DNA from: a virus | Direction: 5' to 3' (one strand) | IMG/VR virus record: IMGVR_UViG_3300033146_005004 | Coordinates: 1-22,640 of that record | Length of the DNA: 22,640 nucleotides | Part shown: piece by piece, positions 535 to 3,842 of the stretch | Numbering within the stretch: the stretch's first letter is position 1 | Layout: every line of letters begins with the position of its first letter | Notes under the pieces: generated by a model | Database searches by the model: none | The model's input: the letters and a program-made list of their open reading frames with translations, nothing else | What the model was told of the DNA's origin: nothing | Made by a program: the position numbers and the translations under genes

Positions 535-821
535 ACACTTACTTAAAACTTACTTAATAAATATTTAATAGACTTTTTCTAAAACTATATCTCAGTTATA
601 AGAAAATCTCTTAGACTGTCTTATAGGGGGGGATAAAATAATATTATATTAAAAGGTATGGGTTAGTATAGTACTCTATAAAAGAGTAAAAATGAATATT
701 AAGAATATAATTTATTATACAATTTAAGAGAAATATCTATGTAAAGAATTATTTACTTTTAGTGGTATTGAAGATAAAAGAAGAGACAATTAATGTAAAT
801 AATTGAATAACAATTTATTAC

Positions 822-893
822 AAGGATTTGCTATCATTCCCTCAATGATGGGTTATACTTCCCTCAAGTATAACAAATCCTTCCCACAAGGAT
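822..893. repeat. Three tandem hairpins with CCCTC/CCCAC loops, 22-bp period
   Basis: Hairpin 1: 831-838 with 844-851, loop CCCTC. Hairpin 2: 852-860 with 866-874, perfect 9 bp, loop CCCTC. Hairpin 3: 877-882 with 888-893, loop CCCAC. The core TTCCCTCAA (third copy TTCCCACAA) begins at 837, 859 and 881, exactly 22 bases apart, and TTATTACAA at 815 is a degenerate fourth copy. The stems differ in sequence but remain paired. An outer helix (822-829 with 875-882) would enclose hairpins 1 and 2 and compete with hairpin 3. No T run follows in either direction, so these are not terminators. Could be an RNA element, a single-stranded DNA site or an iteron-like origin. Confidence 0.75.
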
Positions 894-918
894 AATACTT
901 AAAATAAAGTAAAGAAAA

Positions 919-950
919 TTTGTTTTATTACATAGTTATACTTAATTTTG
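919..950 (+). promoter_or_regulatory. Bacteroides-type promoter for the RepL-like gene
   Basis: TTTG at 919-922, then 20 bases, then TAATTTTG at 943-950. This fits the published Bacteroides primary-sigma pattern (-33 TTTG, -7 TAnnTTTG). Transcription would begin near 957, leaving only about 14 bases before the ATG at 971. It lies just downstream of the hairpin array, so the array would be outside this transcript. Confidence 0.65.
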
Positions 951-970
951 AGTATTAAAAATAAAAAATT

Positions 971-2240: not shown

Positions 2241-2615
2241 ATGGTAATTAGGTATGATACTGATATTAAAACAAAACTACATCTTTTTATTTTTGCTGTA
2301 TTAAATTCCATGAGAGGATGGGGTTTAAATAATACAGATTTAAAAGTTCTTGCAAGTCTTTATAATAAAGATTTTGAACTTATGAAACAATATCCTGAAT
2401 ATAGTGATAGGATGGTGAAGCTGTTTAGTAAAGAAGGGAAGGAAGATTTAATGAAATCTTCCGGAACTTCTTATTTTGTTTTAGGAAATTCTCTTTCTAA
2501 ATTAAGAAAAAAGGGTTTTATCAAAGCAAATATGCTTGAAGAGAAATTATTACTTAATTTAGATAAGGATGAATTTAATTTAACAGTAAAAATAAGAAAT
2601 GAAGGAAGAAATTAA
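2241..2615 (+). CDS. Winged-helix DNA-binding-like protein
   Basis: A 124-aa protein with a helix LNNTDLKVLASLYN (about 29-42), a charged middle, then SGTSYFVLGNSLSKLRKKGF (about 74-93) and two short strands, which reads as a winged helix with its recognition helix near 79-91. Its plan is like that of the RepL-like protein encoded at 971. Candidate roles are a late-gene regulator or, as it lies in the stretch before the large terminase, a small terminase subunit that binds the packaging site; nothing here decides between them. It overlaps the next gene by 17 bases. Confidence 0.6.
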   Translation: MVIRYDTDIKTKLHLFIFAVLNSMRGWGLNNTDLKVLASLYNKDFELMKQYPEYSDRMVKLFSKEGKEDLMKSSGTSYFVLGNSLSKLRKKGFIKANMLEEKLLLNLDKDEFNLTVKIRNEGRN

Positions 2616-3560: not shown

Positions 3561-3842
3561 ATGATAAATTTTCAACCTATTGGAAGAGAAATTTTAGTAG
3601 AAATTCCTATGATTAGTAAAACTACTGAAAGTGGTGTTATTAAAAGTGAGAAAATGATAGAAGAAGAAAAAAAGAATATGGATAAATTCTTAACAGTACT
3701 TGAAGTAGGTAATGAAGTACAACAAATAAAACAAGGAGACAAAATTTATATTACTAATGGTAAACATCCTCAGATTGAATTAGATGGAAAACTTTACGCT
3801 ATTATTAATGAATTACATGTATTAGGGAAGAAAAAAAAGTAA
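3561..3842 (+). CDS. GroES-like co-chaperonin
   Basis: A 93-aa protein matching the GroES (Cpn10) fold in order: QPIGREILVEI (about 5-15, compare L.PlgdRvlV), a mobile-loop-like TTESGVIKSE (21-30), VLEVGNEVQQIKQGDKIYI (46-64, compare V.aVG......G..V) and ELDGKLYAIINELHVLG (73-89, compare G.eY....e.diL). Phage co-chaperonins such as T4 gp31 dock on host GroEL to enlarge the folding chamber for the capsid protein; that role is plausible here but inferred. The leader AAAATAAAAATT is canonical. It abuts the next gene through the TAATG junction. Confidence 0.7.
   Translation: MINFQPIGREILVEIPMISKTTESGVIKSEKMIEEEKKNMDKFLTVLEVGNEVQQIKQGDKIYITNGKHPQIELDGKLYAIINELHVLGKKKK

Follow-up and report, generated by a model that had tools for sequence, protein, structure and literature searches.

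A 22-bp dyad array upstream of repL as a probable RepL-binding site and replication origin in a divergent crAss-like phage

A Hairpin Array Precedes a repL Gene

The 22,640-base stretch analyzed here (the window) is a complete virus contig that carries, near its left end, three perfect hairpins spaced by exactly 22 bp, directly upstream of a gene whose product is assigned by profile comparison to the RepL family of plasmid replication initiators. We consider it very likely that these hairpins are RepL iterons combined with an autoregulatory operator, and that they probably constitute the replication origin of the phage. By its proteins the source is a divergent crAss-like phage, the terminase, portal, and capsid matching phage families, with named phages of the Crassvirales at ∼28–30% identity. 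The array is held by an intergenic region of 587 bp, with a leftward ORF (144–383) on one side and a rightward gene cluster starting at 971 on the other (Table 1).

Table 1. Coordinates of the array and its neighboring features in the window
Feature	Position	Strand	Basis
A+T-rich stretch, candidate unwinding region	676–825		18% G+C, adjoins array
Putative degenerate fourth iteron (center 819), in-phase right half-site AAGGAT	822–827		Sequence and 22-bp register
Putative iteron dyad 1, ATCATT-CCCTC-AATGAT (TCAT-N7-ATGA)	833–849		Perfect hairpin, 5-nt loop
Putative iteron dyad 2, GTTATACTT-CCCTC-AAGTATAAC (TACT-N7-AGTA)	852–874		Perfect hairpin, 5-nt loop
Putative iteron dyad 3, ATCCTT-CCCAC-AAGGAT (TCCT-N7-AGGA)	877–893		Perfect hairpin, 5-nt loop
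Further dyad TACTTAAAATAAAGTA (TACT-N8-AGTA)	896–911		Dyad scan
Bacteroidota-type promoter TTTG-N20-TAATTTTG, assigned to repL	919–950	+	Perfect consensus match
Candidate RepL operator TACTTAATTTTGAGTA (TACT-N8-AGTA)	939–954		Overlaps promoter −7 element
repL, predicted RepL-family (PF05732) replication initiator, 152 aa	971–1429	+	Profile matches

The three hairpins, their equal loops, and their spacing are as the initial annotation had described, except that they span 61 bases (833–893) and not 63. An equally spaced hairpin triple occurs once in the window and in none of 100 dinucleotide shuffles (0/100), and it was absent from all of the other loci searched (1.28 Mb in all, nearly all from crAss-like phage), which bears out the earlier view of a non-chance, functional array with palindromic symmetry. 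No T run is present, and a terminator had rightly been discounted. A further helix, pairing 822–829 with 875–882, does exist as claimed, but it is explained by the AAGGAT at its left side being the right half of a degenerate, in-phase repeat.

Less survives of the proposal that the stems covary and thereby reveal selection on a single-stranded shape. The changed stems are still paired, but the claimed covariation rests on two variable positions in three copies, and when seven repL arrays were pooled, the paired cells numbered 18 of 35 against 15.6 expected from shuffling (p = 0.11); covariation within the arms was accordingly rejected as a sign of such selection. The matched arm changes in the window are a slight oddity, which may be due to a dimer that prefers symmetric sites, to template switching that restores palindromes, or to extrusion playing some part.

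Three direct repeats of 22 bp lying 78–138 bp upstream of repL, and an A+T-rich region adjoining them (18% G+C at 676–825), are both features looked for in an iteron origin, although the whole region around the array is A+T-rich and not just this stretch. Cumulative G+C skew over the first 2.4 kb reaches its minimum within the same intergenic region. Both the skew minimum and the low G+C content fit an origin, but this is weak evidence, as the contig extends for just 383 bp on the other side. Elsewhere at the left end of the window we noted a 12/24-bp tandem repeat (TACATCTACACT, 468–525) and a probable terminator hairpin (AAAGAGACTTAAATGTCTCTTT, 112–137), and a gene for a Cpn10 (GroES-like) co-chaperonin lies at 3561–3842 (PF00166, above cut-off).

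Relatives of the Phage and a Host-derived Repeat

Searches with single proteins or exact DNA found no close relatives of the region, and relatives were recovered through alignments of the capsid, portal, and terminase. The nearest by capsid protein (L009–L012) end before the array region, and those extending further (L089, L090, L094, and L102) lack both the hairpin triplet and a close repL. The more distant relative L089 carries a different winged-helix gene and no triplet; upstream of that gene, in a divergent intergenic region, are two 29-bp repeats ending in AACTAATGAGGTAGGGGG (L089:2944–3001). Several of these contigs have other unusual features. The terminase frames of L013 and L014 (ORF of 1197 aa) and of L090 (1167 aa) are enlarged by an in-frame, intein-like insertion near residue 370, the terminase gene of L012 is split with an ORF between its parts, and L090:860–1340 is a ∼480-bp non-coding stretch, apparently structured and intron- or ncRNA-like by eye.

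Tandem arrays of 22 bp built on the same TTCCCNCAA core occur in some Bacteroidota genomes, some of them with hairpins, and the array could on these grounds be a piece of a dispersed family of 22-bp repeats from a Bacteroidota host chromosome. However, 22-bp spacing was a requirement of the very search that gave these matches, and the two-core pattern was found in one of 295 genomes of one order besides the seed, against one with a reversed control. With no enrichment across these 295 genomes this explanation is largely refuted, and we give it hardly any credence. Papers on the 22-bp repeats of P. gingivalis and on BldC, considered as precedents, proved to have no bearing on the array. On the Bacteroidota chromosomes L195, L203, L215, L132, L158, and L179 we recorded short intergenic tandem arrays of 22 bp in which the TTCCCNCAA core is flanked by complementary arms peculiar to each array.

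The Neighboring Gene and Its Promoter

The product of the gene at 971–1429 matches PF05732 at 22.6 bits (cut-off 20.3) over residues 15–149, a full-length match. Because helix-turn-helix proteins of other kinds often match this model by chance over a short stretch (matches of this kind, limited to the helix-turn-helix and scoring 20–25 bits, are common in Bacteroidota), we built an independent RepL profile from 12 other RepL proteins, leaving out the window protein, which it detected with an E-value of 3.1e-16 (57.6 bits, hmmsearch). Comparison of the window protein with RepL by hhalign gave 97.7% (E = 2.5e-12). In the phage and plasmid collections the matches listed at E ≤ 0.1 were all RepL loci, among them annotated RepL proteins of Sodalis pSG3/phiSG1 and of a Sulfuriferula plasmid. 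The published RepL motif in the DNA-binding domain, hydrophobic-N-P-x5-G (PMC12089946), reads V-I-S-P-DIMWK-G in the window protein, so that P-x5-G is retained and S stands in place of N. A small winged-helix gene found upstream of the terminase in crAss-like phages (L093:1033–1431 and L094:5442–5840), related to window 2241–2615, also matches the RepL profile weakly (E = 1e-5) and may be a RepL paralogue.

Between the array and repL lies a perfect match to the Bacteroidota promoter consensus. With 2.7 such matches expected by chance across the whole window, its assignment to repL rests on position and context, it being the sole consensus match nearby. With this promoter between it and the gene, the array should precede, and not be part of, the repL transcript, an arrangement that speaks against a structured RNA such as a 5′ untranslated element or a small RNA. 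The + strand does fold better than its shuffles (z = −3.7), the effect being mild for the − strand (z = −1.5), but a score of this kind follows from the palindromes alone, as it would for any perfect palindrome set. There is no Rfam match at the gathering threshold, and unrelated replicons show this DNA geometry ahead of repL as well (see below). A structured RNA is very unlikely on these grounds, and the earlier suggestion of action as RNA or single strand is not upheld.

A second dyad with iteron-like half-sites and a spacer of N8 or N9 lies 20–45 bp before repL, over or near the promoter, in the window (TACTTAATTTTGAGTA), Sodalis (TACTTATTATTGAGTA), E. coli (TACTTAAATGCGAGTA), Erwinia (TCCTTATATTTGAGGA), and ArsPv8 (TACTTTATATTAGAGTA), having one or two more spacer bases than the iterons. 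In Erwinia the iterons share an altered half-site, TCCT/AGGA, with the promoter dyad, which fits recognition of both by a single protein. Taken singly, each such dyad has a shuffle probability of 0.004–0.02, and the weight of this evidence therefore comes from its repetition across replicons; the same scan found no match in ArsFIN14, Aapi, and ArsPv7.

A 22-bp Period Recurs Upstream of repL

We examined 19 regions upstream of repL, a non-random sample hand-picked from similarity matches. An exact 22-bp period was present in 11 of the 19, which come from plasmids and phage-plasmids of Proteobacteria and Bacillota and from this phage, a score reached by 0/1000 shuffles (p < 0.001 for each). The 11 are this phage, Sodalis pSG3, an Erwinia phage, three Arsenophonus and two Priestia plasmids, small plasmids of E. 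fergusonii and E. coli, and Sulfuriferula. The signal was absent in the other eight, which were a Vibrio phage, C. helveticus, Pseudoalteromonas HS5 (21 bp), Carjivirus communis gp88 (43 bp) and gp43, LMMB, cr110, and the Bacteroidota locus L277. Among control windows of 400 bp, a period of 22 at a score of at least 30 was seen in 3 of 900, all three within repL-plasmid loci. Matches to PF05732 in Bacteroidota genomes were mostly short helix-turn-helix cross-matches; of the two better ones, L276 and L277, the former also has 22 as its best period (score 29 versus a shuffle maximum of 27).

The arrays mostly lie ∼80–220 bp before repL (∼300–355 bp in Erwinia), and in the best aligned of them every repeat is a dyad flanking a 5-bp spacer. 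Half-sites are common to several: TACT/AGTA of window dyad 2 is found also in the arrays of Sodalis, the 2460-bp E. coli replicon, and Arsenophonus paPv8/paPv7, and TCCT/AGGA of dyad 3 also in that of the Erwinia phage. From half-site matches between arrays and promoter dyads we infer binding by RepL. In the other arrays, however, the arms are mostly constant and the spacer is variable in several, whereas in the window the arms vary and the loop is constant, which is unusual and counts against the reading of the array as RepL iterons.

The combination of a constant loop with perfect pairing despite changed stems could instead mean that the DNA is extruded into hairpins that function as single strands or cruciforms, either as a rolling-circle double-strand origin nicked in the CCC(T/A)C loop or as hairpin promoters of the kind used by an N4-like virion RNA polymerase. 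RepL plasmids are by convention counted as rolling-circle (PMC5703833), and a virion RNA polymerase is carried by crAss-like phages (PMC10136315). However, the several arrays that vary the spacer and conserve the arms display the opposite of a nick-loop signature, three equal copies are atypical for a rolling-circle origin, and the RepL plasmid pBAS2 has no obvious nick site, with no single-stranded DNA seen (PMC5779722). No observation requires such a role, which we judge improbable.

A more serious alternative is that RepL binds the array solely for regulation, as a cooperative operator for repL or for divergent early and late genes, with replication starting at another place, such as within repL, the site suggested for P1. 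The array is directly upstream of the repL promoter, half-sites also overlap that promoter, and P1 RepL acts on an A+T-rich region within repL (PMC9948254). Against this, several helically phased copies next to A+T-rich DNA, most of them 90–220 bp ahead of rep, are what an iteron origin typically looks like, in line with the 22-bp iterons described upstream of rep (PMC5703833, PMC3632715), and such copies occur on small plasmids of 2.3–2.5 kb with little else than repL. We think a purely regulatory site somewhat unlikely.

Proposed Function of the Array

In the model that we favor, of RepL iterons plus an autoregulatory operator, each 22-bp repeat would be one dyad, two half-sites with a 5-bp spacer, bound as double-stranded DNA by a RepL dimer, and the period of two helical turns would bring the dimers to lie on the same side of the helix. 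The arms differ between replicons and the Erwinia half-site change appears in iterons and promoter dyad alike, as would be predicted of a double-stranded homodimer site. RepL bound to the array might then remodel the adjoining A+T-rich DNA so that replication starts, as at a plasmid-type origin, and RepL at the promoter dyad would lower expression of its own gene.

A broader proposition, for which we see the balance as roughly even, is that the RepL family as a whole, in plasmids, phage-plasmids, and crAss-like phages, may use 22-bp dyad iterons together with a near-identical promoter dyad one base wider, initiating by an iteron-type and not a rolling-circle mechanism, the origin of this phage being a case with paired half-site variation. 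Reviews class RepL plasmids as rolling-circle, with the mechanism uncertain and the origins poorly defined (PMC5703833 and PMC5779722), one is described as being without iterons (PMC11389370), and oriL of P1 is placed inside repL (PMC9948254). Our search of the open-access literature turned up no account of 22-bp dyad iterons for RepL. An architecture common to many repL genes is of some interest, given the usual listing of these plasmids as rolling-circle and the uncertainty about their origins. Crassvirales, which are very abundant gut phages, are regarded as putative phage-plasmids where they carry repL (PMC11652158), and according to PMC10136315 the way in which they initiate DNA replication is unknown. 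The array provides a precise candidate for both binding site and origin. Its half-sites are recognizable in plasmids of Sodalis and Arsenophonus as well as in this divergent crAss-like phage, and a repL-linked dyad array might serve as a sequence signature for spotting phage-plasmids in which the RepL protein has diverged.

Comparison with Known Systems

The prototype crAssphage, C. communis, resembles the window in that its repL gene gp88 stands at a divergent intergenic boundary with direct repeats directly upstream. These are two 34-nt copies at a distance of 43 bp (close to twice 22 bp), and they contain a dyad, but there are two copies and not three, they have no sequence match to the window, and a period of 22 is not significant. 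The repeats themselves (beginning ATTTATACCATACATGGAATAGATTTCG, at L099:8017–8093) are a candidate RepL site in crAssphage itself. Upstream of repL at both repL loci of C. communis (BK010471) there is also a long inverted repeat with the common sequence CTCCCCGT(G/A)GAGGATGG, whose arms are separated by ∼100 nt in one case (L099:7743–7759/7863–7879) and ∼71 nt in the other (L098:28065–28094/28166–28195).

Origins with 22-bp iterons are classical for Rep_3-type plasmids. The plasmids pSK639 and Psychrobacter repB plasmids have four or five tandem repeats of 22 bp just upstream of rep and near its promoter (PMC5703833, PMC3632715), much as in the window, although the Rep_3 initiator is unrelated to RepL and a dyad structure of the repeats is not described in the text consulted.

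In Sodalis glossinidius pSG3 and phage phiSG1, three 22-bp repeats (beginning TTACTCTATTTGAGTA, 22 bp apart), with dyads around a 5-bp spacer, precede a homologous repL. The Sodalis arms are constant and the spacer variable, whereas in the window the CCC(T/A)C spacer is constant and the arms change in matched pairs. The two RepL proteins have only ∼26% identity. The TACT-N8-AGTA promoter dyad of Sodalis is nearly identical to that of the window, with 14 of the 16 bases the same.
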